From Poritiphilus flavus (lineage in GTDB: Bacteria > Bacteroidota > Bacteroidia > Flavobacteriales > Flavobacteriaceae), in contig NZ_WXYO01000008.1 of the NCBI RefSeq assembly GCF_009901585.1, positions 124,001-188,000 of the forward strand: a DNA stretch of 64,000 bases, in the 5' to 3' direction. The notes beneath the pieces are model-generated. The model was given only the letters and a program-made list of their open reading frames with translations. It did no database searches and had not been told where the DNA came from. This document shows, one piece after another, positions 2,296 through 33,069 of the stretch (position 1 is its first letter; every line of letters starts with the position of its first letter). The translations under genes and the position numbers were made by a program.

Positions 2296-3762
2296 TTATT
2301 CCAGTCTTTTCCTTAGTTCTTGTGTTAGTTTTTCCACCAATTCAGGGTTTTCCTCAGCGACATTTCTGGTTTCCTTTTCAGAGGAGTCGTGATCGTACAA
2401 TTCCGTATATCCATCCTTGTGCAATATCAGGCGATGACTGCTATTTCGTATGGTAGTAGCCTTGCTGTGATATGCGATAGCCGGATTACCAGCTACTTGA
2501 GGATCCTCCATCATTGGCCTTAGAGAACTCCCCTGGACAAAATCTGGTATCGCAATCCCGGACAGATCACAGAGGGTAGGGAAGAGGTCCAGCGTTTCCA
2601 CAATGGCATCAGTTTCTGCTCCCGGCAGCTTTATATCCGGGTATTGAATGATCAAAGGGGAGTGTAAGGATTCCTCAAACAAGGTGTGCTTTCCCCAGAC
2701 CGCGTGTTCTCCAAGATGCCAGCCGTGATCTCCCCAAAGCACCACAATGGTATTTTTATCCGCCTCTATTCGTTTTAGTTCCTCCAGGATCTTTCCAACC
2801 TGCGCGTCGGCATAACTTACACAGGCCGCATAATGTCGGCGTAAGGCAACTGCAAAGTCCGGATCTTCATTAGGGTCTGATCCCCATAGGTTATATTGCC
2901 TGAATTCGCCGGATCCATGCCAGGTAGTTCTGCCTTCTGGTTTCCCGGGATGGTTTATATCAGGCAATTGTACACTGTCATACAGATCCAGGTAAGCCTT
3001 TGGAGCTCCAAACGGCAAATGAGGCTTTATTAGGCCAACAGCCAGAAAAAAAGGCTTCTCTTCTTTACTTAAATCCTTTATTTGTTTCAAAGCCTCCTTG
3101 GCTATAAGCCCGTCCGGATAGATACTGTCATCTCCCTCCACTGCCTGATACACGTCCATTTCCTTCGGCTTAACCCGAATTTCTCCATGAGCCAGGCCAT
3201 GCATCGCCCCACGTGGATGTTTCCAGGGCCCACTGGGCATAAGCTGTTTGTCCCAGGATCTTGGCATTTCCAATTGGGTACTGTCATTCCAGTCCGCTCC
3301 GCCCATCCCTCCCGGATGATGCGACACTTTTCCCACGGAAATAGCGGTATACCCATGGGTCCGGAACCATTCCGGCATACTGGGATTTATATGCTCCTTG
3401 CCCTGTTTCAACCTGACTGAACGGCGAAATAGGGCATCATTCCCCCTGGGGCCATAAAGACCTGTTAGCAGGGTATAACGAGAAGGGCCGCAACTGGGGG
3501 CATTCACATAATGTCGTCGAAAGGAGATTCCGCTTTGCGCCAAGCGGTCAATATTGGGCGAAATGATGTATTCGGCACCAAAACTGCGCAATTCCGGGCG
3601 CAGGTCATCTACACAAATGAGCAAAATATTGGGCTTTTGTACTACGACCTCTTTTTTGCAATTAATGAATAACAGGGAGAAAAGGAACCCAAGGGATATT
3701 GAAAACAGGCCTCGAAATTTGCCCTGGATAAGTCGGTATTTGAAATTGTTCAATGCTCGCAT
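2296..3762 (-). CDS. Sulfatase lipoprotein, iduronate-2-sulfatase-like
   Basis: A 488-residue type I sulfatase that removes sulfate esters, probably from a sulfated glycan. The N-terminus has a long signal ending in LLFINC with the lipidation Cys at 35, so it should be a periplasmic or surface lipoprotein. Metal ligands Asp52-Asp53 lie in [11 protein letters not shown]. The sulfatase signature [11 protein letters not shown] starts at Cys91, the formylglycine precursor of the Cys-type enzymes, so an anaerobic or FGE-type maturase must exist elsewhere. A second metal/substrate motif is [10 protein letters not shown]. The overall pattern resembles iduronate-2-sulfatase-type enzymes. No SusC/SusD pair is nearby, so this is not a complete polysaccharide utilization locus. 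Confidence 0.9.
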
Positions 3763-11536: not shown

Positions 11537-12118
11537 CTATTGGGTTTTCTTCCGTATCCTGCTCAGGGTACTATCGGTCACACCCAGGTAGGAGGCGATA
11601 TATTTTAGAGGCGCATACTTCAATATCTCCGGTCTGGAAGTGAGCAAATGCTGGTACCGTTGTTCTGCGGTCTGATTGATCATGGCATAGTTTCTTTTGT
11701 TGGAAGCTATAAAGCATTTGACCAGAATTGCTCTCCCAAAATCCCTGAAATCCGGTTTGTTGTGGAACAGCCGGTTTAGTTCCTCATAGGAAAGACGGAA
11801 ACCACTACAGTCTGTTATAGCTTGAATATTGGCATCAGACCGGACGCGGTTGAAAAAGGAAGTGATCTCAAATACAATATTATTTTCAGTGAAGATCTCT
11901 GTGGTTATTTCATTTCCTTCCAGATCATAGAGAAAGGTTCGCATCAATCCTTTTTGAAGGTAGACATAATCATCACTGATTTCATTTTCTCTTAGCAGGA
12001 GTTGACCTTTATTAATTTTCAAAGGACGAAATGCCTTAGCGATTTCCCAGGCTTCGGTGTCCCGAATTGGAATGATCCCTTTAATAAAATTGAACAGTAA
12101 ATCATAGTTTTCATCCAT
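11537..12118 (-). CDS. Crp/Fnr-family transcriptional regulator
   Basis: A 193-residue protein with an N-terminal cyclic-nucleotide-binding-like beta-roll (GQLLLRENEISDDYVYLQKG). A C-terminal short HTH follows in KYIASYLGVTDSTLSRIRKK. Canonical cAMP-contacting residues of E. coli Crp are not evident, as is usual for the many Bacteroidota paralogues of unknown ligand. The HTH recognition helix is SDSTLSR-like. It lies 13 bp downstream of the cupin gene and upstream of the membrane-protein gene, so it may regulate that small cluster. Confidence 0.87.
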   Translation of the reverse strand: MDENYDLLFNFIKGIIPIRDTEAWEIAKAFRPLKINKGQLLLRENEISDDYVYLQKGLMRTFLYDLEGNEITTEIFTENNIVFEITSFFNRVRSDANIQAITDCSGFRLSYEELNRLFHNKPDFRDFGRAILVKCFIASNKRNYAMINQTAEQRYQHLLTSRPEILKYAPLKYIASYLGVTDSTLSRIRKKTQ

Positions 12119-12131
12119 AAACTAAAGTCGT

Positions 12132-12536
12132 TTATCCCTCCAGGTCAGGGGCGCTAAGCGCTTCCCCTTCACGGGGCAGGTCGTATTGGATCCATTCACT
12201 GTTCATATGTACATCCACAGAATCTAACCGGCCTGGTCCCAGGTTCTTGTAGGCATGGGGTACATTGGCAGGCCCTATGACAATGGCGCCCTCTTCCGCG
12301 GTAAACTTTCGGTTTCCAACAGTAAACTCGGCCCGTCCTTCGATAATATGGAAAAGCTCGTCATAAGGATGTACATGAAGATTCGGGCCAACTCCTATCT
12401 CGTCTGTGCTGTAGCGGATGACTACGCAATTGATGCCGTATAGATGGCCTTCCATGACTCCTCTTGGCGGGTCCTGATTCTTAATCCATTCTTCTTTGGC
12501 GATATGTGCGGGTGCTACCCTGGACTCTTTTGGCAT
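12132..12536 (-). CDS. Single-domain cupin protein
   Basis: A 134-residue RmlC-like cupin. Motif 1 has the metal ligands in LHVHPYDELFHIIEG (two His, one Glu), and motif 2 has PANVPHAYKNLG (His). This gives the three-His/one-Glu metal site. Cupins of this size are isomerases, dioxygenases or sensors; the substrate is not evident. It is the first gene of a minus-strand group with the Crp-type regulator 13 bp downstream. Its upstream side is occupied by a long 8-bp-phased repeat element, whose nearest octamer begins about 40 bp from the start codon, so the promoter must lie within or next to that repeat. Confidence 0.85.
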   Translation of the reverse strand: MPKESRVAPAHIAKEEWIKNQDPPRGVMEGHLYGINCVVIRYSTDEIGVGPNLHVHPYDELFHIIEGRAEFTVGNRKFTAEEGAIVIGPANVPHAYKNLGPGRLDSVDVHMNSEWIQYDLPREGEALSAPDLEG

Positions 12537-12578
12537 GGCATAAACTTTTAAAGGTTGAATATTGCAGAACGCTGTTCT

Positions 12579-13425
12579 AATTTACCAATAAATTAATGTA
12601 ACAATCTACCAATGTGCTAATTTGAAAATGTAAAATCGTGAAATTGTAAAAAGGAGTATTCAAAAGTTTATTTGGGTCGGCCTAATGGCTACTACCAAAT
12701 GCGCGCTCCCATATACCAGTTTGCTTCCAACTGATTTTATCCTCCGTAGCTTTAGCGAAGGAGGACTGCCAACCGCGTATTGCCTACTGCCTACTGAAAC
12801 AGGGGTTCCAATCCCCACCCCAAATTCAAGTTAAGGCTCAAAGCTGCAATTTACAAGCAGAAAAGCTATCCGATAATTTGAAAATGTAAAATCGTAAAAT
12901 CGAGGAATTGTAAAATGGTTCGTGACTGGTGACTGGTGACTGCCTACTGAAACTGGGGTCCGAACCCCATCCCAAATTCAAGTTAAGGCTCAAGGCTGCA
13001 ATTTAAAAGCAGAAAAACTATACTATTATTTGAAGATTGGTCAATTTAAAAATTTGAAAATGTTATTATACATCAACGATCTAAAAGTCTAAAGATCCAA
13101 TGTACCGATTTGGCAATGTAGCATTGGTCAGCCCAACCTTCTAATATTCTAATAGTCTGGCCCGTCTAACTATCCAACCTGCCTAACCATCTAATCATCA
13201 AATAGTACAGTAATCTAACCGTCTGACCAATCCAGACCATCCAGCTGTCTAACCATCTATCAATCCAACAGTCCAATAATCTAACCGTCCAACAAATCCA
13301 GACCGTCCAGCTGTCTAACCATCTAACAATCCAATAGTCCAGTAATCTAACTGTCTAATCATCCAAAAATCCAATAATCCAACTGTCTAACAATCTAACC
13401 GTCTAACCCACTATCCAAATAATAT
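12579..13425 (+). repeat. Octamer-phased intergenic element E1
   Basis: Left arm: nine consecutive 8-bp units at 12579-12650 (AATTTACC ... ATTGTAAA). The core is 12650-13020. It holds the hairpin TCCTCC...GGAGGA (about 12739-12764) and two copies of a module with GGGG...CCCC, a CCCAAATTCAAGTTAAGGCTC stretch and CTGC...GCAG. Between them are heptamers GTGACTG x3 plus CCTACTG (12922-12949). Right arm: more octamers, including twelve in perfect phase at 13306-13401 with consensus TCYAAYNR. The element fills the gap between the cupin start and the S41 peptidase stop. Confidence 0.85.
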
Positions 13426-13476
13426 ATCTGGAGTTTTGACAAATTTAATTTCACTTGCAAATCCTTGAAGAGGATC

Positions 13477-14904
13477 TTACTTATCCAATGCTTCTATGGC
13501 CTCTAAAATATCGGCTTTATCTTTCTCTAAATTGTTCACTACACTTCTAAAAAAGTCCTGCCTATCCTCAGGATAATTTAGTCTATAATCGGGTGGTACA
13601 CCTACATTTTCATAAGAATTACCATCCTTATCCATATAGATTTCATTGGAAATGGAAAAGGCCCAGCCGTTAGGCAGGCTTTTTTCCAAAGCCGTAGAAA
13701 GCGCCCCCTGTGTATTGCTGCCTATAATTGTAAAATGAGGGAGCGAAATAGCTCCGATCGCTAAGGCTTCTGCAGCACTGCCGGTCTGCTGGGAAGTGAG
13801 TACATAAACAGGATTGGTATAGGCCTTAGGTGAGGCCTCAAGAAAAAGGGATTGCAATGGTGAGAACTTTTTACCGTGTTTCAACCTGGTCATAACGACC
13901 TTGCGGCGTTCAGGATTGAACCGACGTAATATTTCAAAATTTACAGCATCTTGTCCTCCACCGTTGAACCTAACATCTATGACCATGGACGTTGTTTGTG
14001 AAAGATCTTCCATAACCTTATCCATGATCTTTCTAACCCCAAAAACTTCTTTTTCAATATAGGCTCCTTCATACATTTGGTGAAATGTGGTGACATAGGC
14101 ATCTACGTAGCCTTGCTTTTCTATAAGGGCTTTGGGGATATCAAGATCGGCATACAGCCACATGGCTTTTAGCTGTATATACCCGGTGGTCTCATTTAAT
14201 TTTCCCCATTGGATCAGCCAGGAGTCTTCAGTCATTTCTTCCTGCATATGATGTTTTGCAACCATCTGAGCCACCTGAAAATCTCCATATTCGGGAAGCT
14301 GTTCATCATTGGTTTCACTAGAGTCTTCGGAAGAAGAATCAACAGCTTCATATACGTCTTCTGTCGCTTCCAGATAGGCGTGGTTGTCGTTTAACTTTTC
14401 CAGGATTTCCTCAATGGTCAGGTATAGCTTTACATCGGTGGGATCCTTTGCCAGCCTGTCTTTCTGTTGTTCATACAGCTCATCCCAACGTAGGTTGTTT
14501 AGTTTAAAGAAGGCATAGTGCTCTCTGACGGTCTCCGCGAAGACTTCAAAGTTGTAAAGCGGATCATCTTGTTTGGCTGCTTCAGGAGTGCTAAGACATA
14601 CCTCGGGCAGGGTGTTTTGCCTAACAAAATTGTAGGTCATAACCCCCTTTAAAAGGGAAAGTGTATCATTTTTGATTTTCAGGACCTCCTGGATCTCTTC
14701 GAATGCTCCAATTCTATTCGGCAAGCAGGAAATGGAAGTGATATCGTATAGCGAATAGGCCGCACTATCCTGAATTTGCAAGACCCAACCAGAACCTATG
14801 GATTCCCAGATCCCATTGACGGAATTGTTTTTTTCTTTTTCATTTGGCTGGCAAGACGATATGATAATTGCAAGAAGTAGGGCTAGTGGGTAAAGATGTC
14901 TCAT
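13477..14904 (-). CDS. S41-family peptidase, lipoprotein
   Basis: A 475-residue exported protease of the C-terminal-processing (tail-specific) family. The signal MRHLYPLALLLAIIISSC ends in a lipobox Cys at about 18, so it is a lipoprotein. After an N-terminal domain comes the S41 catalytic part: VIDVRFNGGGQDA and the nucleophile Ser in LTSQQTGSAAEALAIG, with GALSTALEKSLPNGW further on. No PDZ domain is obvious between the two parts, so it resembles the PDZ-less S41 proteins of Bacteroidota. Both flanks are repeat elements (E1 downstream, E2 upstream), leaving it as a monocistronic gene. Confidence 0.87.
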   Translation of the reverse strand: MRHLYPLALLLAIIISSCQPNEKEKNNSVNGIWESIGSGWVLQIQDSAAYSLYDITSISCLPNRIGAFEEIQEVLKIKNDTLSLLKGVMTYNFVRQNTLPEVCLSTPEAAKQDDPLYNFEVFAETVREHYAFFKLNNLRWDELYEQQKDRLAKDPTDVKLYLTIEEILEKLNDNHAYLEATEDVYEAVDSSSEDSSETNDEQLPEYGDFQVAQMVAKHHMQEEMTEDSWLIQWGKLNETTGYIQLKAMWLYADLDIPKALIEKQGYVDAYVTTFHQMYEGAYIEKEVFGVRKIMDKVMEDLSQTTSMVIDVRFNGGGQDAVNFEILRRFNPERRKVVMTRLKHGKKFSPLQSLFLEASPKAYTNPVYVLTSQQTGSAAEALAIGAISLPHFTIIGSNTQGALSTALEKSLPNGWAFSISNEIYMDKDGNSYENVGVPPDYRLNYPEDRQDFFRSVVNNLEKDKADILEAIEALDK

Positions 14905-14952
14905 TATTTTTTTTCTAAAGACAAGTTCTTTTTTCCACTGTTACAGTTGAGC

Positions 14953-15503
14953 AATTAATCAATGTAATGCTTTGAAAATGTAAAATTGTAAAATCGAGAA
15001 ATTGTAAAAAGGAGTAATCAAAAGATTATTGGGGACGGCCTAATGCCTACTGCTAACTGCCATCTGCCAAATACCAGTTTGCTTCCAACTGATTTCATCC
15101 TCCGTAGCTTTAGCGAAGGAGGACTGCCAACTGCCTACTGAAAATGGGGTTCCAAACCCCACCCCAGATTCAAGTTATGCCTCGAGGCTGCAATTTACAA
15201 GCAGAATAGCTATCCTATAATTTGAAGATTGGTCAATTTGAAAATTTGAAAATGTTATTATACATCAACGGTCTAAAAGTCTAAAGATCCAATGTGCCAA
15301 TTTAGCAATTGGTTAGTCCAACCTTCTAATAGTCTAGCCCGTCTAACCAATCCAGACTATCCAGTTGTCTAACCATCTAACAGTCTAATCGTCTAACCAT
15401 CCAATCGTCCAGAAGTCTAACAGTCCAACAATCTAAGCGTCGAACCATCCAAACATCCAACAATCTAAGGGTCTAGCCATCCAAACCATCTAACCGTCCA
15501 ACG
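14953..15503 (+). repeat. Octamer-phased intergenic element E2
   Basis: Same architecture and orientation as E1 but with one core: GAAAATGTAAAA-type octamers, heptamers GCCTACT GCTAACT GCCATCT, and the TCCTCC...GGAGGA hairpin around 15098-15123. Then comes GGGGTTCCAAACCCC (6-bp stem) and CTGC...GCAG, ending in TCTAA-type octamers to 15503. The last unit touches the stop codon of the small ORF at 15505. Confidence 0.85.
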
Positions 15504-15504
15504 A

Positions 15505-15648
15505 TCACTTCTTCTTCTGTTGCTTTTTGATGGTCTTTTCGTTGAAATCGAATTTGTTCGTCTCAATATTTGTGTTTCCCGTGGGATTCGTGGGATTTTT
15601 CTGTTCCGTTTTTCTCTTGAACTTTCTATTATCTTCTATTCTTCCCAT
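15505..15648 (-). CDS. Small lysine-rich hypothetical protein (47 aa)
   Basis: An ATG at 15648 opens a 47-codon frame ending TGA at 15505-15507. The product is hydrophilic and basic, with NPTNPTGNTN in the middle and a C-terminal KKQQKKK. No domain is recognised. Support: it fills the only non-repeat stretch between element E2 and the cytochrome gene, it is on the same strand as its neighbours, and E2 stops exactly at its stop codon, as E3 does at the next gene. No clear ribosome binding site is seen, but this is common in Bacteroidota. It could also be a chance frame. Confidence 0.4.
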   Translation of the reverse strand: MGRIEDNRKFKRKTEQKNPTNPTGNTNIETNKFDFNEKTIKKQQKKK

Positions 15649-15698
15649 TGCTATTTATTTAATTTGAACTTCATGTATTCCTTCCTCATCTGAATTAA

Positions 15699-16166
15699 TC
15701 AATAATAAGGAGAGTAATGTGTTGAAGGCGGACTTATTTCATATTCTGATTGAAGAAACGTAACTAAATCAACAAGTTCCTGAACGGTCATAACCTCATT
15801 GTAATTCTTCATCTTTGAAAGTCCTTCTTCGGTAACGTCTTTTTCTTTATAGCCCGATGCGATTTTGTGAGAAGGATTTATAACTGAAGTTACCAGGTCT
15901 CCATAGCTTTTCATGGTCCTTACTTCACCTCCAAGTTGTATTTGGAGACTATCGATTCCTCCCTTCCACTCAATCTCCGGGATACTGTGACACGCATTAC
16001 ATTCTAATCGTTTATAGGTCGCTTTTCCTTGTTCAATGTCGCCCGCAGGTAATGCAAATCCACGTGCTTGGTCATCGCAACTGCTTATAAGCAAGCCTCC
16101 GCATATTATAATGAACGCCAGTAAATATTTTGAAGTGGTGCACCAGGTTTTGTACTTTCCAGACAT
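15699..16166 (-). CDS. Mono-haem cytochrome c lipoprotein
   Basis: A 155-residue product from the ATG at 16166. A longer frame opens at 16223, but the shorter start puts a normal signal peptide first (MSGKYKTWCTTSKYLL). The signal ends in LLISSC, a lipobox, so the protein is exported and lipid-anchored. One haem attachment site CNACH follows in KRLECNACHSIPE. A distal Met in the region SKMKNYNEVM is the likely axial ligand, as in class I cytochromes c. A role in periplasmic electron transfer is probable, but its partner oxidoreductase is not nearby. Confidence 0.85.
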   Translation of the reverse strand: MSGKYKTWCTTSKYLLAFIIICGGLLISSCDDQARGFALPAGDIEQGKATYKRLECNACHSIPEIEWKGGIDSLQIQLGGEVRTMKSYGDLVTSVINPSHKIASGYKEKDVTEEGLSKMKNYNEVMTVQELVDLVTFLQSEYEISPPSTHYSPYY

Positions 16167-16282
16167 CGGTTGTTGTTTTAAATTAAGGATTTGTTTCCCC
16201 ATCATAATGAATGATGCAAACAAACATACTGACTAAGAAGAACTTGCGAAATGACCTGCATCAACCGGCGGGGGCATAGTCC

Positions 16283-16956
16283 GATGTGGAAATGTACCGG
16301 TGTGGAAATATACTTATGTGGAAATGTAGTAAAGTGAAAATTTGAAGATTTGAAAATGTAAAATTGTAAAATCGTGAAATTGTAAAAAGGAGTAATCAAA
16401 AGATTATTTGGGACTGCCTAGAGCCCACCGCGAATACCAGTTTACCTCCAACTGATTTCATCCTCCGTAGCTTTAGCGAAGGAGGACTGCCAACTGCCTA
16501 CTGAAAATGGGGTTCCAAACCCCTCCCCAAATTCAAGTTATGCCTCGAGGCTGTAATTTAAAAGCAGAAAAACTATACTATTATTTGAAGATTGGTCAAT
16601 TTGAAAATGTAAAACCGTAAAATCGAAGAATTGTAAAATGGTTCGTGACTGGTGACTGCCTACTGCCTACTGAAACTGGGGTCTAAACCCCACCCCAAGC
16701 TTAAGTTAAGCCTCTAAGCTGCAATTTAAAAGCAGAAATACTATAATTTGAAAATTTGAGAATGTACCAATTGCCCAGGAATCCAGCCGTCTAACTATCC
16801 AACCTGTCTAACCATCCAACAGTCCAATCATCTAACCGTCCACCAATCCAACCGTCTAATAGTCCAAGAATCTGGTCCTCTAACCGTCTAACTATCCAAA
16901 CTGTCTAACCATCCAACCTGTCTAACTAGTCCAATAAACTAAACATCTAACCCTCC
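16283..16956 (+). repeat. Octamer-phased intergenic element E3
   Basis: Thirteen consecutive octamers in one phase at 16283-16386 (GATGTGGA AATGTACC ... ATTGTAAA) drift from a GTGGA type to a GTAAA type. A first core follows with TCCTCC...GGAGGA (about 16460-16485) and GGGGTTCCAAACCCC (16509-16523). Next come short octamers, heptamers (GTGACTG GTGACTG CCTACTG CCTACTG) and a second module with GGGGTCTAAACCCC. Eleven perfect octamers of the TCYAAYNR type lie at 16807-16894, then slightly irregular ones. It ends at the stop codon of the transglutaminase-like gene. Confidence 0.88.
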
Positions 16957-17592
16957 CTAGAGTTTGAACTCAGTCTTAGGCTCTTTGGTGTCGAAAATAT
17001 GAGGATAGTGCTCCTTAATATTCCGTTTCATAAAATCCAGTGGAACGTCCTCAAAGTGTCCGTAATCTTCTATATATTCCATGAACCGGCTTCCTTCGCT
17101 ATTGTATTGTTGTAGAAAGGAATTGTTCTTGCCATCAAATTCCAGGGGCTCAACATTGAATTTTTTGCAGAGGGATTTGTTAAATGCCGGGGATACTTTA
17201 AGCCATTGATCGTTCAGATAAACGTTGACCATTCCGTGAGGTGTAAGTTCGTTAGAGCCAAATTTTTCGATAAGCCTTTCAACGGCGATATGATTCTTGA
17301 CTTTTCCCAGATGCAATCTCGCGGGGATACCCAGGGCCCGAAGACAGGTGATCAATAGGATGGACTTCTCAACACAATTAGCGGTCGTTTTTTGTGCTAT
17401 GGTACTTGCCCGATAATTCTGCTCGGAAAGACTAATGGTGTAAGGGTCGTATTTCCAATGGTCTCGTACATATAAATACATCGCAATGGCCAGATCCGCC
17501 TCAGGGAGCGTTTTGTCTTTAAATGGTGATATGAGTTTCTGGACAGGCTCGCTTTCAAAGTCAAAATAATATGAGGATTGCAGGTAGTTCAT
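16957..17592 (-). CDS. Transglutaminase-like (papain-fold) domain protein
   Basis: A 211-residue protein from MNYLQSSYYF; an ATG 39 bp upstream is also open. The transglutaminase-core Cys lies in TTANCVEKSILL and the His in LTPHGMVNVYL. The position where the family usually has Asp (D-x-T/P) reads WLKVSPAFN, so the canonical third residue appears to be replaced. It is cytoplasmic by lack of a signal. In bacteria these proteins are cysteine proteases, amidases or catalytically inactive scaffolds. Repeat element E3 reaches up to its stop codon. A DUF1801 gene lies 58 bp upstream on the same strand. Confidence 0.8.
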   Translation of the reverse strand: MNYLQSSYYFDFESEPVQKLISPFKDKTLPEADLAIAMYLYVRDHWKYDPYTISLSEQNYRASTIAQKTTANCVEKSILLITCLRALGIPARLHLGKVKNHIAVERLIEKFGSNELTPHGMVNVYLNDQWLKVSPAFNKSLCKKFNVEPLEFDGKNNSFLQQYNSEGSRFMEYIEDYGHFEDVPLDFMKRNIKEHYPHIFDTKEPKTEFKL

Positions 17593-17649
17593 CAAGATAA
17601 TTGCAGTATTAATTTCGGGCTGACAGACCACTAAAATAGGGCGTTTTTT

Positions 17650-18117
17650 CTAGTTGTCTTTCTTTTTGGGTCTGATTTTCCTAGCTGAAACAGACATCAC
17701 AATACTTCTCGGATTGGAGTTACTTTGTATCAATTCGGTATTTAAGCTCTCTGAGATCCCCACCGCTTCCCATATCATTTTTTCAATTTCCTGTTTGGGG
17801 AAGGTATCAAATTCCTTTACAGAAATATGCCGTATCAACTTTCCCGTTCCCTTCAGCTTAATATCTGTTTTAGTAAGCTCTGCTCCCCGGTTAAACCCAA
17901 AATTCACATGTCCGGAATATACTGCCAAATGGCAAAAGGCATCCTTTAGCTTTTCCGATTTGGAATAAGCGATGGCCACGGCATTGTAGTTGTCCCAGAT
18001 CAGTTCGTTTGCCTCAGGAACCAGCCCTGTGATGTAATCCCGTAATTGCAGGGTCAACTTTTGAATTTCCTTGTCATAGGGTTCCAGAAAGTTATTAAGT
18101 TGCCGGTTTGGTTCCAT
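17650..18117 (-). CDS. DUF1801 (YdhG-like) domain protein
   Basis: A 155-residue protein with the YdhG/DUF1801 pattern. It has an N-terminal helix pair (NNFLEPYDKEIQKLTLQLRDYI), the typical ELIWDNYNAVAIAYS segment, a central CHLAVYSGHVNFGFNRGAEL, and GTGKLIRHISVK. The tail is strongly basic (ARKIRPKKKDN). The fold is small and cytoplasmic. The biochemical role is not established; related proteins are involved in iron or stress responses in some bacteria, which cannot be inferred here. It sits between a transglutaminase-like gene and an alpha/beta hydrolase gene, all on the minus strand. Confidence 0.82.
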   Translation of the reverse strand: MEPNRQLNNFLEPYDKEIQKLTLQLRDYITGLVPEANELIWDNYNAVAIAYSKSEKLKDAFCHLAVYSGHVNFGFNRGAELTKTDIKLKGTGKLIRHISVKEFDTFPKQEIEKMIWEAVGISESLNTELIQSNSNPRSIVMSVSARKIRPKKKDN

Positions 18118-18205
18118 TTGGAAATAATTTTTTCAATTTATGCTTACCGTAAAAAGCAAATCATTTCGAAGAGATTACGCCTTTAGGCCTATCTACAGTA
18201 GTAAT

Positions 18206-19057
18206 TTACACTTTTTCGTACCAATCAGCAGTCTGTTCCCATAAACTATGTTTAAACCTTCTGCTAAAAAATCCGAAGTGACCTATTTTTTTGGCTCCAA
18301 TTGCATCGGGGCTGATGTGTTTGATTGCCGTACTGGCCGATGTAAACAGCTCATAGACGCGTTGAATGGCTTTTTCTGTACCAATAACATCGTCTTCTAT
18401 GGCCAGTGTTAAAAGCTTCCCCTGGAAACGGTCAAAAAACAATTGGTTCCCTTCATTTTCCATTTGATGGACCATATTCGGGTCCTTTTTTCTCGCATTC
18501 CACTGGGCTATAATACCCTTTGGGATATCTTCTAAGAGTCCCAGTTTCTTACCGGGAAAGTACCCGTAAACCTGTGTTACGGCAGGGAATAATATATGCC
18601 ATAAAAAGTATAACCTGTAGCGATCTTTGTCCCAGTCTTTGTAATAGGAGGTTTGTGCCCCAATGTTGATAATGCCGCTGATTATGCTACATTTTTCTGA
18701 CATACCAACTATGGTTCCTCCAATGCTATGTCCCATAATCAATATCTTATGGTCTGGTAAACGGGTTTTGGCATAGGCTAAGACGGCTGTAAAATCCAGT
18801 TGTCCCCAGGCTGTAAAAGAAGCGTGGAATCCTCTAAGCTTGTCTGGCCTTGAATCCGCAATTCCTCTATAGTCATAAGTGATCACCTCAAAACCATTGG
18901 CCGCCAGATAGCGGGCATAATTCATATAAAGCCCCCGACTTACAGCAGTAGCCGAATTGATAATGACTACTTTGTGTTTTTGCTTATCGGCCTGGGCGGG
19001 GAAATGGTCACCTTTAATGACCATGCCATCTTCACACGTTATATCGATGGGTTTCAT
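18206..19057 (-). CDS. Alpha/beta hydrolase (serine type)
   Basis: A 283-residue alpha/beta hydrolase. The nucleophile elbow is GHSIGG in ILIMGHSIGGTIVG, the oxyanion region is near VIINSATAVSRG, and the acid is probably Asp in AIEDDVIGTE. A C-terminal His lies in KKIGHFGFFS. The N-terminal motif ITCEDGMVIKGDHFPA and the lid-like insertion HILFPAVTQVYGYFPG match a family of Bacteroidota and proteobacterial hydrolases often annotated as YheT/serine aminopeptidase-like. No signal peptide is seen. Substrate unknown. It is followed by the DUF1801 gene and preceded 39 bp upstream by an acetyltransferase gene. Confidence 0.86.
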   Translation of the reverse strand: MKPIDITCEDGMVIKGDHFPAQADKQKHKVVIINSATAVSRGLYMNYARYLAANGFEVITYDYRGIADSRPDKLRGFHASFTAWGQLDFTAVLAYAKTRLPDHKILIMGHSIGGTIVGMSEKCSIISGIINIGAQTSYYKDWDKDRYRLYFLWHILFPAVTQVYGYFPGKKLGLLEDIPKGIIAQWNARKKDPNMVHQMENEGNQLFFDRFQGKLLTLAIEDDVIGTEKAIQRVYELFTSASTAIKHISPDAIGAKKIGHFGFFSRRFKHSLWEQTADWYEKV

Positions 19058-19096
19058 ACTGCTATATGCGGTTTGGCCATTGGAAGTTTAATTCAA

Positions 19097-19546
19097 CTAC
19101 AACTCAATCTCGTATATCCTGGACGCCTCTTCCCAGGGGTGATAACCCTGTCCAACATATTGAAAACCGTATTTTTCATAAAAGCCGACATGTTCGGTAC
19201 ACAAATACAAATACTGGTATCTAAATTTTTTGGAATCCTTTTTTGCCCGATCTATTAGGAGCGTACTGTACTCATGGCCACGATGGTTCTCAGCGATAAA
19301 CAGGCCACAGATCCAGGGGTACAGATCACCCCGACTGATAAAATCGTTCGTAATCAGGCCTGCGCAACCGATGATCTCATCCTCTTTTTCCAGCAAATAC
19401 CACTGAGGCAGGTTATTCCGCGCATGGATACTGTGGTTGATGCTGTCCTCGTATATCACAGGCCATACGCTTTTCCAATGCTCCTGAAAATAACGTATCG
19501 CGATGTCTTTATACTCTGGGTTTTCTCTTATGGATATGATTCTCAT
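19097..19546 (-). CDS. GNAT-family N-acetyltransferase
   Basis: A 149-residue acetyltransferase from MRIISIRENPEYK. The open frame continues 66 bp upstream to an ATG at 19612, but that extension (VQKSSDLKIQLTQ...) is simply the translation of octamer repeat DNA, so it is excluded. The acetyl-CoA loop is in ICGLFIAENHRGHEYSTLL (the usual R/Q-x-x-G-x-G/A reads RGHEYS). The C-terminal strand is YVGFYEKYGFQYVG-like (EHVGFYEKYGFQYVG). Acceptor unknown. The repeat element E4 abuts its 5' end, so its promoter must lie inside or beyond the element. Confidence 0.86.
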   Translation of the reverse strand: MRIISIRENPEYKDIAIRYFQEHWKSVWPVIYEDSINHSIHARNNLPQWYLLEKEDEIIGCAGLITNDFISRGDLYPWICGLFIAENHRGHEYSTLLIDRAKKDSKKFRYQYLYLCTEHVGFYEKYGFQYVGQGYHPWEEASRIYEIEL

Positions 19547-19549
19547 TGG

Positions 19550-19845
19550 GGTTGTTGGATATTTAGACTCTTGGGTTAGTTGGATCTTTAGATCGCTAGA
19601 TTTTTGGACCATTGATGCATTTTCAAATTTTCACATTGCCAGATTGATATATTGTTACATGGGAACTTTTAGAAGGTTAGATATTTTAGATTTTTAGACT
19701 CTTGGACAACTAAGACATTTTCAAATTTACAAATCCTCAAATCTTCAAATTGCCAAAGTTTCGAATTGACTAATTGCTTCATTATTACATTGATTCATTG
19801 ATAAATTATCTCATTGTAATTTTAAACTTTACACTATCTGACCTT
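19550..19845 (-). repeat. Octamer-phased intergenic element E4 (core-less)
   Basis: TTRGA-type octamers (TTGGA, TTTAGA, CTAGA) give way to CATTTTCAAATT-type units and then CATTATTACATTGATTCATT-type units, without the GGGG/CCCC and TCCTCC modules. Orientation is opposite to E1-E3. It lies between the agmatine-deiminase-family stop and the GNAT start. Confidence 0.75.
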
Positions 19846-19851
19846 GCTCGT

Positions 19852-21144
19852 TCAATTTGTGTTTAGAACAGGTTGGTGCATACTAATGCAGTGCAATCCT
19901 CCACCTCCCAAATTCACTGCCAGGGCGTCCAACATCACTACTTTTCTGTTGGGGAATACTTCCTCAAGAATCCGCTTTGCCTCATTGTCCTGCATTTTGA
20001 TCTTATCAGGCATGCCTTCCCGCCAATATTTTTGACCGAGAACTACCTTGTTGGTAATAATAAAATTCAAGTAGCTGGCCGGGGCCACCACCGTAATAGT
20101 GTCTCCGTCGGGAAAATGACTACCGTCGCGGTACTCCAGGGTTTTGATATAATCATAGACATAGTCCCCCGGACTCATGGTGGTTAGGATGGTTTGAGGC
20201 AATGGTAGCCTTACAATGTTCAGCGGATTGCCATCCTGGTCATTACTTTTAGATAGTATTGCAAAGTTTTCTTCCATTCGTAAATGATTTTCACGAGCGA
20301 TTGGGTCTTCCAATTCTGTAGTGTCTATACTTGCGAGGAGAACGGTGGAATCATTGACAAACCGGGCAAATTCATCCACATGACCGTTTGTGGTAACCAC
20401 AGTATAGGCTTTGGTAGAATCCACTGTGGTCAAAGGGCCAAGAAATGTATGCTGGTCCTCTTGCAGTCCATTTTTTAACCATATCACCTTCTTAACACCC
20501 AGTAAGCGCTCGTATTCCTTTTCCATTTGAACTTTGGTCATTTCCGGATTCCGACCCATTTCAACAACTTCCGTGACCAGTAAAGTTCCCTTGCCATTGA
20601 GTTCCCGATTGCCACCCTCGCTAATCATAGTACTGGAAACAATGGGCAAATCGAGTAATTCTGCCACCCTTTCATCAAACTTTTCTTCGATCTTACTGCT
20701 AAGGTCTAAAGTATCTGAGTACCCCCAGGAATTAAAATTAAAGTCGGCAATAGCGTGTTTTCCATCTTCAGTTTCCACAAAAACAGGTCCCATATCCCTT
20801 GCCCACAATTCAACGGATGGGATGAGTTGAAAGCTTAGATTATCCAGGTTCGTATATTTTTTTCCCAAGACAGCTTTGGCCTCAACCAGTGCCTCTTCGT
20901 CTGCGCAGCTTATTACGATTTTCAGATCTGAACGAAGTTCATCAATGATCCTCATACTAACTTCTTTTACGGATTCACCTTTTTTATGATCTGTAGCAGG
21001 CCAAATTAGCCAGAGCGCATCTATTTTCTCGAACTCGCCCATCTGCCGGGCTACCTCAACTTGCTGCTGCCTTTTAACAGGAGCCGTGTTGCAGCTTAGT
21101 AGTGATAGTGTAAATACCAAAACTAAAAATATACTTCTCATCAT
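19852..21144 (-). CDS. Agmatine deiminase/peptidylarginine deiminase-family lipoprotein
   Basis: A 430-residue protein from MMRSIFLVLV; 26 in-frame residues further upstream lack signal character. The signal ends LSLLSC, giving an exported lipoprotein. It belongs to the guanidino-group-modifying superfamily with the AIH/PAD_porph pattern: WLIWPATDHK, the SVELWARDMGPVFVE box, AIADFNFNSWG, ISEGGNRELNG, a His in GHVDEFARF, and the catalytic Cys near the C-terminus in LGGGGLHCISMHQP. Relatives convert agmatine to N-carbamoylputrescine or citrullinate peptides. A lipidated, periplasmic form is less usual than the cytoplasmic polyamine enzyme, so peptidyl or free arginine derivatives in the periplasm are possible substrates. 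Confidence 0.88.
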   Translation of the reverse strand: MMRSIFLVLVFTLSLLSCNTAPVKRQQQVEVARQMGEFEKIDALWLIWPATDHKKGESVKEVSMRIIDELRSDLKIVISCADEEALVEAKAVLGKKYTNLDNLSFQLIPSVELWARDMGPVFVETEDGKHAIADFNFNSWGYSDTLDLSSKIEEKFDERVAELLDLPIVSSTMISEGGNRELNGKGTLLVTEVVEMGRNPEMTKVQMEKEYERLLGVKKVIWLKNGLQEDQHTFLGPLTTVDSTKAYTVVTTNGHVDEFARFVNDSTVLLASIDTTELEDPIARENHLRMEENFAILSKSNDQDGNPLNIVRLPLPQTILTTMSPGDYVYDYIKTLEYRDGSHFPDGDTITVVAPASYLNFIITNKVVLGQKYWREGMPDKIKMQDNEAKRILEEVFPNRKVVMLDALAVNLGGGGLHCISMHQPVLNTN

Positions 21145-21239
21145 TGTTATTACGATTGGGTAGTTGCATGCGGAAAACCCTACTGGTTTGGGTTCCTGTA
21201 ACGTGCATAACGAAGTTAGCAAAAACTGATACTATTGAC

Positions 21240-21866
21240 TATAGCTGGGAGGTTGGATTGTTGGATTCTTGGATTGGTTGGAAGGTTGGATGGGTTAGAC
21301 GGCTAGACAGCTTGGATAATTTGATGTTTAGACTTTTGGACAATAGCGACATTTTCAAATTGACAAATCTTCAAATTATGGTATAGCTTTTCTGCTTTTA
21401 AATTGCAGCTTTTAGGCTTAACTTAAGCTTGGGGTGGGGTTTAGACCCCAGTTTCAGTAGACAGCCCTCCTTCGCTGGAGCTTCGGAGGATGAAATCAGT
21501 TGGCAGTCAATTTCACAATTCCTCGATTTCACGATTTTACATTTTCAAATCTTCAAATCATAATATAGCCTTTCTGCTATTAAATTGCGGCTTTGAGGCT
21601 TAACTTAAACTTGGGGTGGGGTTTAGACCCCAGTTTCAGTAGACAGCCCTCCTTCGCCAAAGCTTCGGAGGATGAATCAGTTGGCAGTCAATTTCACAAT
21701 TCCTCAATTTTACAATTTTACATTTTCAAATTCTCGCATTGTTACATTAGATCATTAGATTGTTGGATCGCTAGACTATAAGATTTTTAGAATTTCAGAT
21801 CATTAATTCATAATTCCATTTTCAAATTTTCACATTGATACATTATTACATTGATTCATTGCAATC
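21240..21866 (-). repeat. Octamer-phased intergenic element E5 (two cores)
   Basis: Reading the minus strand it matches E1-E3. On the plus strand the order is TTGGA-type octamers, CTGCTTTTAAATTGCAG, GGGGTTTAGACCCC and CCTCCTTCGCTGGAGCTTCGGAGG. Then come TTTTACATTTTCAAAT octamers and a second complete core (about 21560-21685) with loop variants (CCAAAG for CTGGAG). TTAGAT-type octamers finish it. It fills the gap between the deiminase-family start and the VOC stop. Confidence 0.85.
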
Positions 21867-21882
21867 ACTCACTCTTGCCTCA

Positions 21883-22359
21883 CTAATTGGCTGAATGCAA
21901 CCCCAGCTTATTCCCCTCGGTATCCAGAAAAAGGGCAAAATGGCCGCTGTCATCCGCGTGGGGGGTTTTGGGGACCAGGACTTGTCCACCATTTTGTGCT
22001 ACCTTATCGAGAATGGGTTGCAGATCATCTCCGGCGTTTAAATAGACGGTTACCCCATCCGCTGAGGGCAGGTAGCCTTCCGCTTTGGTGATCACTCCGG
22101 TAACCATTTGATCTTCGTACGGAAAAATGCCCATTTCCAATCCGGGCATTTCAAATTTCTCGATCTTAAGGTCTAAAATTGTCTGATAAAATTTAATGGC
22201 CCTGGCTACGTCTGTGGCGGGAATCTCAAAAATTGCAATAAAACTGTTCATTTTTTTGGCGCTTTGTGGCGGTGTTTTGGAAGGCTCTTGGCTTTGGCCG
22301 TATGAGTTAAAGAAGCTAAAAACCAGAACGACAACTATGCCTAATCTTATACTTTTCAT
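21883..22359 (-). CDS. Exported VOC-superfamily protein
   Basis: A 158-residue protein with an N-terminal signal (MKSIRLGIVVVLVFSFFNSYG, cleavage after about residue 21) followed by a VOC domain: FIAIFEIPATDVARAIKFYQ, a middle TVYLNAGDD, and HFALFLDTEGNKLGLHS at the end. Exported glyoxalase-like proteins are uncommon, and the signal is clear here. It may handle a periplasmic small molecule, but no substrate can be named. The second half matches the fosfomycin/bleomycin-type subgroup in length only. Its stop adjoins element E5, and an AraC-type regulator lies 75 bp upstream on the same strand. Confidence 0.82.
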   Translation of the reverse strand: MKSIRLGIVVVLVFSFFNSYGQSQEPSKTPPQSAKKMNSFIAIFEIPATDVARAIKFYQTILDLKIEKFEMPGLEMGIFPYEDQMVTGVITKAEGYLPSADGVTVYLNAGDDLQPILDKVAQNGGQVLVPKTPHADDSGHFALFLDTEGNKLGLHSAN

Positions 22360-22434
22360 ATATCAGATGTGATGATATGTCAAAGTTATTAGCTCTGATA
22401 GCCTGGGAATTGTAAAAATGCGACAGTCAGACTT

Positions 22435-23250
22435 TTATTTGTAGAATAGGGTAGAAAGGGCCAGTTTTTCGTTACCCAAAAACTCCCCGGGGCTGCTGCC
22501 TGTAAATTCCTTAAAGTCTTTTATAAAATGAGCCTGATCGTAGTACTCACTTTCGTAGGCAATATTGGTTAGGCTTTCAGGCTCATCGTTAAGTAATAAT
22601 TTTAGGGCAGATTGCAGCCGTATTACCTTAGCAAGTTGTTTTGGGCTTACTCCGATTTGTTTTGCAAACATCCGCTCCAGTTGCCTTCTTTTAGATGGGT
22701 CTTCTTTCAGTATACTTTTAATTGGGGCATTTCCTTTGGTCTGGATCAGGGTATCTACTGTGCTTTGCACAATCTGGTCTATGGTTTTTTGGTCGTTGAG
22801 TCTTTGCAAAAGGAATTCCTCAATAATGGCTATACGTTGGTGCACGTCTGTGGCCTGAATCATTGCCTTTTCCAGCTCATTTGCGGAATGCTCTTCGAAT
22901 AGGGTCGATATAGCGGTTTCTTTGTTCGCGAGACTTTTGATAGGTACAGATACAAAATTGGCAAAGCCATATGGGTAAAAGCGGATGGCAAAAGTGTAGA
23001 CATAACCCGCAGGCTGGATATAAAAGGGCTCAATGGTCTGCCCCAGTACCATGGCCCGGGGTTGAAGGATAAATTCATCACCAGTGGTATATCGCTTAAT
23101 GTCATCCCCCAGTATAAAAGCCATTTCAATACAGCCGTCTGGTACTATCCGCTGTCTTTGTGAGTCGTTGTCCGCAGGCACCTCCAAAGTCCAGTAACAA
23201 CTGATTAGCGATGCTAAGTCCGGATGAGGCGGGTAGGTTTGATAGTCCAT
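22435..23250 (-). CDS. AraC-family regulator with DUF6597-type N-terminal domain
   Basis: A 271-residue protein. The first half begins YQTYPPHPDLASLISCYWTLEVP and contains RIVPDGCIEMAFILGDD, the DUF6597-like sensor pattern found in AraC regulators that recognise small effectors. The C-terminal third is the two-HTH AraC domain: IGVSPKQLAKVIRLQSAL and the conserved IAYESEYYDQAHFIKDFKEF, then GSSPGEFL. No effector is known. It is 60 bp downstream of two tandem SDR genes on the same strand and could regulate them, though distance and orientation would also allow independent control. Confidence 0.88.
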   Translation of the reverse strand: MDYQTYPPHPDLASLISCYWTLEVPADNDSQRQRIVPDGCIEMAFILGDDIKRYTTGDEFILQPRAMVLGQTIEPFYIQPAGYVYTFAIRFYPYGFANFVSVPIKSLANKETAISTLFEEHSANELEKAMIQATDVHQRIAIIEEFLLQRLNDQKTIDQIVQSTVDTLIQTKGNAPIKSILKEDPSKRRQLERMFAKQIGVSPKQLAKVIRLQSALKLLLNDEPESLTNIAYESEYYDQAHFIKDFKEFTGSSPGEFLGNEKLALSTLFYK

Positions 23251-23310
23251 ATGAGTTTCAATCTAATGAGTTAGGTGCTATGGGTAAATGACATAAAGGA
23301 TCCGTAATTT

Positions 23311-23982
23311 CTATCCATTCCAGGTTCCTAATCTTTCTCCACCATCCACATCAATTATGGTGGCCGTTACCGCCGGGTTCTTAATTACGGCATAAATCAT
23401 ATCGGCAATATCCTCTACCTGTCCCTTGTGTTCTGTTAGTTGTCTGTCGGTATTTATTCCTATACCACCAGGAGAAACCGCATTTACCCTTATTGGGGCT
23501 ATGTCTATTGCTGCCTGTTTAACTAAAGCATTTATGCTTCCATGCAAGGTGCCCCATACTCCGTAACCCCTTAAAGGTGTTTTGGCGCTACTTCCTGAGA
23601 GTAAAGTTACTGAACCATTCCGATTCATATATTCCGGGGCAAGATGTAGTACGTTATAACTGGTCCAGAATCTTTCAAATGCCTTTCTGGCTTCCATCTC
23701 AAGGGTGTTATTTATGCCCCTCGCATTGGCGTTTGCAGATATTGCTACAATTATGTGGTCCACCCCTCTATGCTGGATAAGTGCGCTTTTTAATTCTGAC
23801 TCGTTGGAAGCATCAAAAACCGAAAAGGAACTATGATCTCCCAAAGCTTTTGATGCTGAAATTAACTTTTCTTTGTTTCTGCCCGCAATTACTACTTCAA
23901 AATTATTTGCACTAAGTGTTTTTGCTGTTGCCAGACCCATTCCACCTGTGCCGCCTAATATCAAAACACGCTGTTCTCTCAT
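23311..23982 (-). CDS. Atypical short-chain dehydrogenase/reductase-like protein
   Basis: A 223-residue SDR-fold protein with a good dinucleotide-binding motif (LILGGTGGMGLATAKTL) and VVIAGRNKEKL. The catalytic region is abnormal. The SDR serine is present in LLSGSSAKTP, but where Tyr-x-x-x-Lys is expected the sequence reads WGTLH before GSINALVKQ, so neither catalytic residue is kept. It may bind NAD(P) without classical dehydrogenase activity. Only one base separates its start from the stop of the preceding SDR gene, implying translational coupling with that protein, which is also degenerate at the same site. Confidence 0.82.
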   Translation of the reverse strand: MREQRVLILGGTGGMGLATAKTLSANNFEVVIAGRNKEKLISASKALGDHSSFSVFDASNESELKSALIQHRGVDHIIVAISANANARGINNTLEMEARKAFERFWTSYNVLHLAPEYMNRNGSVTLLSGSSAKTPLRGYGVWGTLHGSINALVKQAAIDIAPIRVNAVSPGGIGINTDRQLTEHKGQVEDIADMIYAVIKNPAVTATIIDVDGGERLGTWNG

Positions 23983-23983
23983 T

Positions 23984-24700
23984 TTAGATCAAGGTTAGAC
24001 CGCCATCAACATTGGTTATGCTACCGGTCATATATGGATTCGTAAGTATAGAATAATAGGCATAAGCAAGTTCCTGCGGAGTGCCCAGATGTTCTACCGG
24101 TAAGGTTTTCTTAGCCCATTCCTTGTAGTTTTCTGTTTCTTCTTGTGTCCAAACTCCAGTGCCAACAACACCTGGTGCAACGACACTCACTCGTGTTGGG
24201 GCTATCTCAAGGGCCAGGGCCTTTGCAAACACTCCTACCGCCGCACTTGCAGCATTCATAATTGAAGCGTTTTTAGATGGTTTATAAATGGCTATACTAG
24301 AGGTAAGTACCATGGCGCCTTCTTTTGAGATATAATTTGCCGCGGCTCTGCAGCAATTGAAAGTTCCCCAAAACTTTTCCATTCCTCTGTGGGCTATTTC
24401 CGTAGGCATAGATTTTATTGGAGAAAACAATTTGGTCTCATCTGCCACGGCGGTCAATGCCATATAATCAAATTCACCAATTTGCCTGAAAGTTTCGTTT
24501 ACAGCCGTTTCATCTAGCATGTCCATCGGCTGAACAAAAGATTTTTCACCCAATTCCTGTTGCAATTCCAGTAGTTTGCTTTCAGTTCGGCTTACCAAAT
24601 AGATAATCGCCCCTTTTCCGGCACAGATCTTAGCTAACTCCCGCCCGATTCCAGATGAAGCCCCTACAATTACAATTTTCTTGTCTTTAATTTCAATCAT
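23984..24700 (-). CDS. Atypical short-chain dehydrogenase/reductase-like protein
   Basis: A 238-residue SDR-fold protein with the Rossmann motif VGASSGIGRELAKI and IYLVSRTESKL. The active-site Ser is in LTSSIAIYKPS, but the Tyr-x-x-x-Lys position reads NAASA in IMNAASAAVGVFAKAL, so both catalytic residues look replaced by Asn and Ala. The NNAG segment is also altered (MALTAVADE). Its stop is one base from the start of a second SDR-like gene with a similar loss. The pair may form a heteromeric, NAD(P)-binding, non-dehydrogenase complex, or may be decaying. Confidence 0.82.
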   Translation of the reverse strand: MIEIKDKKIVIVGASSGIGRELAKICAGKGAIIYLVSRTESKLLELQQELGEKSFVQPMDMLDETAVNETFRQIGEFDYMALTAVADETKLFSPIKSMPTEIAHRGMEKFWGTFNCCRAAANYISKEGAMVLTSSIAIYKPSKNASIMNAASAAVGVFAKALALEIAPTRVSVVAPGVVGTGVWTQEETENYKEWAKKTLPVEHLGTPQELAYAYYSILTNPYMTGSITNVDGGLTLI

Positions 24701-24869
24701 TTTCTTTTCCAGGAAAAGTATAAAACTTTTAATACCTGAAGGTTGATCTCATGGTAAATTGTTTGTTAATTATTAGGAGATTTGACCAGGATTCCCATCC
24801 GGGGGGTTTGTCGAAATAGCATTCGGTTTATCCCATTATAAACAGAACCTTTTTCACGCCCCGCCAAAG

Positions 24870-25316: not shown

Positions 25317-25329
25317 TTTATAGTTTTTT

Positions 25330-25355
25330 AAAGGCAGGACGTTCATCCTGCCTTT
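25330..25355 (-). terminator. Perfect 10-bp hairpin between SDR and CNB genes
   Basis: AAAGGCAGGA pairs with TCCTGCCTTT around a 6-nt loop. It follows the SDR stop by about 25 bp and precedes the CNB start. The T run is only three long, so termination may be partial. It also blocks use of the ATG at 25346. Confidence 0.55.
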
Positions 25356-25380
25356 GGTTATGTATTAATTGAAGTGAATT

Positions 25381-26139: not shown

Positions 26140-26241
26140 TTTACTAAAATTTTGAGTGAATTATTTTTTTAACTACACTGCAAAGGTTGAGTAAAATGGG
26201 AGCTGGTTTTAGGTCAGTTTTGAAGGTCTGACAGTCAATTT

Positions 26242-27144: not shown

Positions 27145-27221
27145 TTAAGCTTTCTGATTTAAGACGGTATATTCTCTAACTAGACTCCTACCTGAAAGAG
27201 AATTCCTTTTGACGGCAGACG

Positions 27222-27790
27222 TAAGGTTAGACATTGCTGGATTTTTAGAATCTCAGATCATTGATACACGATCACATTTTCAAATTGACAAATCTTCAAA
27301 TTATGTTATAGCTTTTCTGCTTTTAAATTGCAGCCTCGAGGCATAACTTGAATTTGGGGTGGGGTTTGGACCCCAGTTTCAGTAGGCAGTTATCAGTCAC
27401 CAGTCACGAGCCATTTCACAATTCCTCGATTTTACGATTTTACATTTTCAAATTCTCACATTGTTACATTAGATCATTAGATTGTTGGATCGCTAGACTA
27501 TAAGATTTTTAGAATCTCAGATCATTGATACACGATCACATTTTCAAATTGACAAATCTTCAAATTATGGTATAGCTTTTCTGCTTTTAAATTGCAGCTT
27601 TTAGGCTTAACTTAAGCTTGGAGTGGGGTTTAGACCCTGTTTCAGTAGACAGCCCTCCTTCGCTAAAGCTTCGGAGGATGAATCAGTTGGCAGTCAATTT
27701 CACAATTCCTCGATTTTACGATTTTACTTTTTTAAATTCTCAAATTGTTACATTAATCCATTACTACATTAATCCATTGATCCATTGGAA
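27222..27790 (-). repeat. Octamer-phased intergenic element E6 (two cores)
   Basis: Two cores, 27310-27420 and 27570-27690, are separated by seventeen octamers in perfect phase at 27427-27562 (CGATTTTA CGATTTTA CATTTTCA ... AATCTTCA). These change from TTTTACA type to TTAGAT type and back without losing the 8-bp frame. Hairpins GGGGTTTGGACCCC and CCTCCTTCGCTAAAGCTTCGGAGG are present. The element ends a few bases from the stop codon of the GNAT gene at 27793. Confidence 0.87.
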
Positions 27791-27792
27791 AT

Positions 27793-28317: not shown

Positions 28318-28358
28318 TTCGTTGTTTGGCCAGCAGCTTATAGATTAGACTTCGTTTT

Positions 28359-33061: not shown

Positions 33062-33069
33062 TATATTTG
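33062..33069 (+). promoter_or_regulatory. Candidate -7 element TATATTTG of kinase copy A
   Basis: Exact TAnnTTTG match 23 bp before the ATG at 33093, conserved in copy B at 36271-36278. Confidence 0.5.

Follow-up and report, generated by a model that had tools for sequence, protein, structure and literature searches.

Five intergenic gaps of 648-940 bp in a 64,000-nt stretch of the Poritiphilus flavus genome, referred to here as the window, hold repeated sequences with several hairpins each. The locus raises the question of whether these sequences are copies of one structured element, as an earlier note on this DNA had it, and whether their pairing has been selected. The source genome has 4.99 Mb in 19 contigs. 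Nine copies of a core of about 75 nt were identified in the window, five on the plus strand and four on the minus strand (Table 1). Its parts are, in order, a hairpin with a GGGG stem (H1), an invariant CCCC run, an AARTTA box, a spacer of about 11 nt and a second hairpin with a TGC/GCA stem (H2). The earlier note had proposed that a TCCTCC hairpin, a GGGG hairpin and a CTGC(N9)GCAG stem follow each other in each complete copy. This order was found in six of the nine cores, which are preceded by the TCCTCC hairpin on their own strand; the hairpin is missing at 12946, 16669 and 27383. Each confirmed GGGG hairpin is followed by a CTGC(N9)GCAG-like stem, and this right stem deviates in two of the nine cores (CTGT at 16551 and CCGC at 21574-21590). 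The statement that the GGGG stem is kept while its loop differs was confirmed at the window sites listed for it, except for one AGGG stem (27625-27638).

Table 1. Positions of the structured repeats and associated arrays (window numbering, except for the last row)
Feature	Position	Strand	Parts and remarks
Core	12793..12867	+	H1 12801-12816; H2 12844-12860
Core, no TCCTCC hairpin upstream	12946..13020	+	H1 12955-12968, GGGGTCCGAACCCC; H2 12996-13012
Core	15137..15211	+	H1 15146-15160, GGGGTTCCAAACCCC from 15146; H2 15188-15204
Core	16500..16574	+	H1 16509-16523, GGGGTTCCAAACCCC from 16509; H2 16551-16567 (CTGT)
Core, no TCCTCC hairpin upstream	16669..16743	+	H1 16678-16691, GGGGTCTAAACCCC at 16678; H2 16719-16735
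Core	21384..21458	-	H1 21436-21449, GGGGTCTAAACCCC; H2 21392-21408
Core	21566..21640	-	H1 21618-21631, GGGGTCTAAACCCC; H2 21574-21590 (CCGC)
Core, no TCCTCC hairpin upstream	27309..27383	-	H1 27361-27374, GGGGTCCAAACCCC; H2 27317-27333
Core	27572..27646	-	H1 27625-27638 (AGGG); H2 27581-27597
TCCTCC...GGAGG hairpin	12740..12764	+	Apex GTAGC-TTTA-GCGAA; 5' foot TTTA just upstream
TCCTCC hairpin	15098..15122	+	
TCCTCC hairpin	16461..16485	+	
TCCTCC hairpin	21466..21490	-	Apex TCCA
TCCTCC hairpin	21648..21672	-	Apex TTTG
TCCTCC hairpin	27654..27678	-	Apex TTTA
Period-7-like stretch (ACTGNNN)	12765..12796	+	Between TCCTCC hairpin and core; read directly
A+T-rich stretch, period 8	12578..12655	+	Upstream of the element; read directly
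Period-8 array, NNRTCYAA type	13140..13415	+	Downstream of the element; repeat families D1, D2, D19
Core tandem arrays after 5S rRNA genes (G223)	L354:3529-4592 and L355:132-866		

The core is not a chance pattern, since a covariance model trained on 60 P. flavus copies had 94 matches in that genome at E ≤ 0.01, the weakest few being short or divergent, and a loose pattern for the TCCTCC hairpin found 85 sites in the same genome versus none in the reversed control. Zones within 500 bp of a core make up 1.4% of the genome and hold 46 of these 85 hairpins, each of which has its nearest core on its own strand. In a genome of another genus (G223), which has 78 cores, the loose pattern for the TCCTCC hairpin found nothing, and the hairpin occurs in records of many phyla; the association is therefore local. 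The window core is a composite in which two independent structured repeats are set in short tandem repeats.

The arrays that flank the cores have a period of 7 (ACTGNNN), of 8 or, at times, of 6 (AAGTNN), and a four-unit heptamer pattern has 422 matches genome-wide. Near the cores are degenerate arrays of period 8, some A+T-rich and others of the NNRTCYAA type, at 13140-13420, 15317-15500, 16787-16950, 19583-19810, 21240-21330 and 27730-27790; arrays of period 7 and period 6 accompany other core copies. Constant letters and free spacers in these arrays are not as expected from simple slippage. Intergenic arrays of period 7 are also known from the STRR repeats of cyanobacteria. TAACTGA heptamer repeats, again period-7 intergenic arrays with ACTG, have been reported also in five Bacteroidetes; unlike these, the P. 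flavus heptamers keep ACTG alone constant, vary in three bases and are joined to structured elements (PMC4679880). Between the heptamers and the GGGG stem, six of the 60 listed copies carry an extra hairpin, GAAAATTGG-NNNN-CCAATTTTC or a variant, and the loci with this hairpin upstream of the core are L206, L218, L219, L227 and L229. Seven divergent cores are found on one strand over 15 kb at L290:3044-18237 (contig C11 of the same genome), where two adjacent cores belong to units that are nearly identical, measure about 173 bp and have more hairpins, and a third core has the same flank. A segment of about 3.2 kb is directly duplicated at 32948-38985 of the window, with a spacing of 3202-3212 and blocks that are 79-97% identical; it carries paired open reading frames of 673/671 and 222/287 amino acids.

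Selection on an RNA or cruciform structure had been deduced from stems that stay constant while their loops drift. This argument is not sufficient by itself: two segments left unpaired by the consensus structure, the second CCCC run and the AARTTA box, are as invariant as the stem, so conservation alone is no proof of a fold. Copies with AGGG..CCCC have one pair broken. The covariance test that had been suggested gave a weak result within the P. flavus genome. Inner pairs numbered 39 versus a shuffled mean of 36.7 (p 0.05), three double-change cells were present among 58 distinct rows, and the covariation score was 0.067 versus 0.050, a value reached by two of 500 shuffles. When the partners were slid by +3 columns the score was 0.090, above the 0.067 of the actual structure, and the RNAalifold covariation term was -0.04. 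This weakness is what would be expected if the copies were neutral remnants left by tandem duplication and gene conversion, their stems being conserved through recent paralogy. The local tandem duplication of the whole composite, for example at L199, and the lack of a gene-orientation bias in the amplified lineages are also in favor of that explanation. However, the divergent copies, those of other genera together with divergent ones from P. flavus, gave a different result. Their H1 inner stem takes the forms TT/AA, ATT/AAT, AGT/ACT, CAT/ATG, ACC/GGT and others. In a test anchored on the G-run and the C-runs only, 106 of 109 sites were usable and yielded 78 distinct hairpins, in which 179 of 234 inner pairs were Watson-Crick; the mean of 3000 shuffles, which ignore the kinship of copies (tandem units are related), was 125 and their maximum 146. 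All three inner pairs formed in 31 hairpins (shuffles, 8.3; maximum, 17), and a previous test on 29 distinct divergent hairpins had given 39 pairs versus 27.8. The inner pairing was not imposed by the search because the search models paired only the three outer G-C pairs. Selection on H1 pairing, seen with divergent copies, is thus supported, and the earlier claim is supported for the GGGG hairpin across such copies and not by the close paralogues of the window. Compensatory change of this strength weakens the explanation by neutral duplication, which must also account for invariant unpaired boxes at fixed spacing and for a core retained at an orthologous site (L353/L344) with a changed stem. 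We consider it unlikely.

H2 is kept less strictly than H1. Its outermost pair fails in 26 of 65 cells in the set from G223 and its sister species G582, and by eye it seems absent in several copies of G181. Folding energies of eight single cores were ordinary to moderate (z from -0.8 to -3.6). Pairing of the spacer with the sequence after H2 showed no excess over shuffled sequences either in G223/G582 (4.12 vs 4.39; 51 of 64 copies) or in P. flavus (4.24 vs 4.15; 51 of 60 copies).

The 75-nt core is an element of one bacterial family. Among 299 genomes of the family, 23 including P. flavus had matches at E ≤ 0.001, many of them weak; four of five weak matches were lost when rechecked, and a broader model kept matches at E ≤ 0.01 in nine of 13 selected genomes. 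With strict filters and a threshold of E ≤ 1e-4, a search of 395 genomes from the phylum returned P. flavus, G223 and G582, all of the same family. BLAST with a core fragment against 60 relatives matched four, including P. flavus itself, and the other three were 26-nt matches only. The search of Rfam models that had been proposed produced no match to the core in the parts scanned, which were window positions 12000-28500 and nine loci at E ≤ 1 and five loci at the gathering score. BOX, ERIC and NEMIS are intergenic non-coding repeats about 100 nt long, structured and modular in build. The core resembles them by general type, in being modular, structured, intergenic and non-coding, and differs from them in its H1-CCCC-AARTTA-H2 architecture.

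The position of the core relative to genes was analyzed in a set of 22 loci from seven low-copy genera plus one doubtful hit (G201). Four of these are inside open frames, two on the same strand and two not, and two have no 5' neighbor; of the 16 that remain, 14 intergenic cores follow a same-strand gene, at 6-143 nt. By eye, the copies at L264 and L353/L344 lie between a stop codon and an apparent terminator. These observations would fit an explanation close to the view of the earlier note, namely that the two hairpins serve neighboring genes as cis-acting RNA regulators or as transcription terminators. Nevertheless, direct reading of the nine window cores shows after H1 no T-run of the kind that follows the GC stem of an intrinsic terminator; the five bases after H1 are ACCCC or TCCCC in seven of them, ATCCC in one and ACTCC in another. 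No functional relation links the ten genes tested upstream, which include L20, CorA, a Na/H exchanger and an oxidoreductase. The P. flavus cores are found in gaps of every gene orientation, and by eye an apparent terminator already precedes the element in L286 and in arrays after 5S genes. A role for both hairpins in the regulation or termination of their neighbors is therefore very improbable. A 3'-end position is not general either, since a same-strand gene is on the 5' side in only 11 of 31 clusters in G223/G582 and for 34 of 56 placed cores (38 gaps) in P. flavus.

The arrays after 5S genes belong to G223, where a 5.6-kb contig carries 16S, 23S and 5S rRNA. Fifty nucleotides that overlap the 5S gene end of this contig are also the ends of contigs C2 and C3; an Rfam scan of 44-50 nt at these two contig ends did not name a 5S gene, and that of the full operon contig did. 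After the 5S comes what appears by eye to be a terminator, and then tandem cores of about 80 nt each, with 13 core matches at the end of C2 (12 in sense; 11 of the 13 were recovered in the repeat search) and nine at the start of C3 (eight in sense).

When G582 was compared with G223, some core sites were common, others were missing from G582, and copy number was different at more. These differences in presence and absence, together with the two hairpins, their fixed spacing and the repeated copies, could mean that the core acts as DNA and moves single-stranded, as a minimal, non-autonomous relative of IS200/IS605 whose left and right ends would be formed by the hairpins H1 and H2. On the other side, a Y1 transposase match was present in three of the eight other core-bearing genomes searched and missing in five, G223 with its 78 cores among the latter. 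Neither a clean junction nor a target tetranucleotide could be read between G223 and G582 because their intergenic DNA is too diverged, and the sense bias in the low-copy genera also argues against this origin, which we regard as doubtful.

The TCCTCC hairpin differs from the core in range. In the window its apices are TTTA (four copies), TCCA (one) and TTTG (one), with a T-A or T-G closing pair kept. The unit has 30 nt, a 5-nt foot (its last letters mostly CTTG, CCTG or TTTA) followed by TCCTCC-GWAGC-YNNR-GCGAA-GGAGG. At least 115 stretches in the collection of species genomes carry the exact pattern, and their record titles name Bacteroidetes/Bacteroidota, Verrucomicrobia, Lentisphaeria, Planctomycetota, Omnitrophica, Elusimicrobia, Patescibacteria groups, Proteobacteria and others; most of the records are metagenome bins, so single cases may be contamination. 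The earlier suspicion that this module is widespread was therefore correct. Single matches to the loose apex pattern are at chance level, since 39 of 395 phylum genomes matched versus 38 for the reversed control (hand count); clearly above the control were P. flavus (85), G470 (12), G469 (9) and G497 (6). Anchoring on the apex only gave 178 hits at 159 loci, nearly all chosen for the hairpin or a Y1 gene, and 129 of the hits had the usual stem. Among 37 non-canonical flank combinations, ten were fully complementary, and 151 of 222 positions paired (shuffle mean, 108.6; maximum, 128; 5000 shuffles). The apex (G-W-A-G-C/G-C-G-A-A) is the signature, and the outer stem need only pair. The tetraloops TTTA, TCCA and TTTG had been correctly noted, and the idea of a kept outer stem with a drifting apex is inverted family-wide. 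DNA folding of two hairpin copies gave z values of -2.4 and -3.1; two others, clipped at the 3' end, gave +0.3 and -0.05, values that the clipping makes uninformative. By our own reading, the FAKASED string is the translation of this hairpin; the earlier note placed FAKASED-like strings in many spurious annotated proteins. A limited literature search with the peptide and DNA strings of the hairpin, FAKASED included, found no related paper.

Movement of the hairpin was assessed by joining the 45-nt flanks of 198 hairpins and searching the joined sequences against all collected loci. Without the window, the P. flavus genome and one heptamer-rich locus, 144 queries were left, of which 25 had a match that spans the junction. 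The best match was free of the hairpin in 12 queries; in the others (about 11-13 of the 25, including all six from one tandem-repeat locus) it bore the hairpin and was uninformative. The internal gap was exactly 30 nt, foot plus hairpin, in ten of the 12, three loci having an extra small gap elsewhere; only alignments with at most ten gap letters were kept, a filter by which very different gap sizes would be lost. L060 and L173 are the same place and L090 and L109 the same repeat type, and the distinct empty sites number five, in a Phycisphaerae, a Lentisphaerae repeat and three verrucomicrobial sequences. The pairs of filled and empty sites are all from other phyla, none being from P. flavus. 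L156 and L127, from different genomes, differ by 18 + 12 nt around a kept TCA, a sum of 30, and L167 has no 30-nt gap. Four of the five empty sites are palindromic (GCCCGC-GACA-GCGGGC, GGCTACCC-AA-AGGGTAACC and, twice, CCGGCTTCAGCCGG). Since the palindrome pre-exists, insertion is likelier than deletion. No target duplication was visible in the comparisons of filled and empty sites. Insertion into palindromes as a general rule was rejected: the mean flanking stem was not above the shuffle maximum, and flanking stems of at least 6 bp are a minority, present at ten of 109 hairpins (shuffled mean, 2.6; maximum, 8). Tentatively, a free-standing 30-nt DNA hairpin, recognized through its fixed internal-loop apex and not through its stem sequence, may be mobile in many phyla and insert precisely into palindrome loops, the enzyme that moves it being still unlinked.

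This behavior calls to mind the REPs served by TnpA-REP/RAYT transposases. The hairpin is like REPs in being an imperfect palindrome in the size range of 20-40 nt, with a terminal foot and many copies dispersed between genes (PMC3733652, PMC6006769), and in being sometimes sited within palindromes, as reported for REPs in three species (PMC3733652). Size, foot, palindrome and dispersal would thus favor a canonical REP served by a RAYT. Nonetheless, the foot is mostly CYTG or TTTA and neither GTRG nor CGTC. The commonest feet (n = 109) were CTTG (29), CCTG (16), TTTA (13), GGTG (4) and CTCG (4), and among the 30 commonest feet listed GTGG occurs once and CGTC does not occur. Also unlike REPs are the exact 30-nt differences of a single hairpin, the near-identical apex across phyla and the lack of a linked RAYT among the loci searched. 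A RAYT flanked by the TCCTCC hairpin was looked for and rejected: among 30 Y1 loci (one per matching genome or fewer, not all Y1 matches), the exact hairpin was found at one, where it differs from a paralogous repeat by a 30-nt gap, and four more have hairpin matches with 3-4 substitutions. A Y1 HMM from only four seeds had two hits (L060 and L090) in 115 hairpin loci and was too weak to use. Because the GTRG/CGTC foot and the RAYT link failed as tested, the hairpin is not filed as a canonical REP, though it is REP-like, and we see little probability in that assignment. REP-like structures of RAYT subclass 2.6 are atypical, without GTRG, with copies elsewhere in the genome and mostly from Bacteroidetes; compared by description only, the hairpin is like them in lacking GTRG and having copies elsewhere (PMC6006769). 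In P. flavus, the sole Y1_Tnp protein found (L031:1384-1938, contig C1) has the motifs SHLH/WQ/YIHNNP, looks subclass-2.6-like by them, and is flanked by a palindrome other than the TCCTCC hairpin. Palindromes like GCGGATTTGCAATCCG are repeated around this gene and probably form with it a separate REP system; the flanks differ from the TCCTCC hairpin except for a single degenerate TCCTCC-like stretch near L031:2333.

The best explanation, to which we give an even chance, is that a REP-like mobile hairpin of 30 nt and a family-specific, transcribed 3'-end element of about 75 nt with two hairpins have been fused in tandem repeats. We infer both the enzyme that would move the hairpin and the role that the core would have in the cell. 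The 30-nt unit would move as single-stranded hairpin DNA, on which a HUH-type (Y1) nuclease might act in trans. The 75-nt core would be a 3'-end element that is transcribed, with selection acting on its fold as RNA. Certain lineages, as seen in the window, may copy it passively along with the neighboring repeats.

If true, the reading of a free-standing mobile hairpin would place this 30-nt sequence among the smallest mobile DNA units known. Should the 30-nt differences be real transposition, the hairpin would offer a clean minimal substrate for the questions of how the smallest mobile DNA moves and by what route hairpins spread across phyla singly and not as REP dimers; it would also explain the recurrent spurious peptides that the earlier note mentioned. 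The 75-nt core represents a covarying structured family with no Rfam match where scanned, whose position at 3' ends is testable, and the core arrays that follow 5S rRNA genes offer a way to test an RNA role directly.
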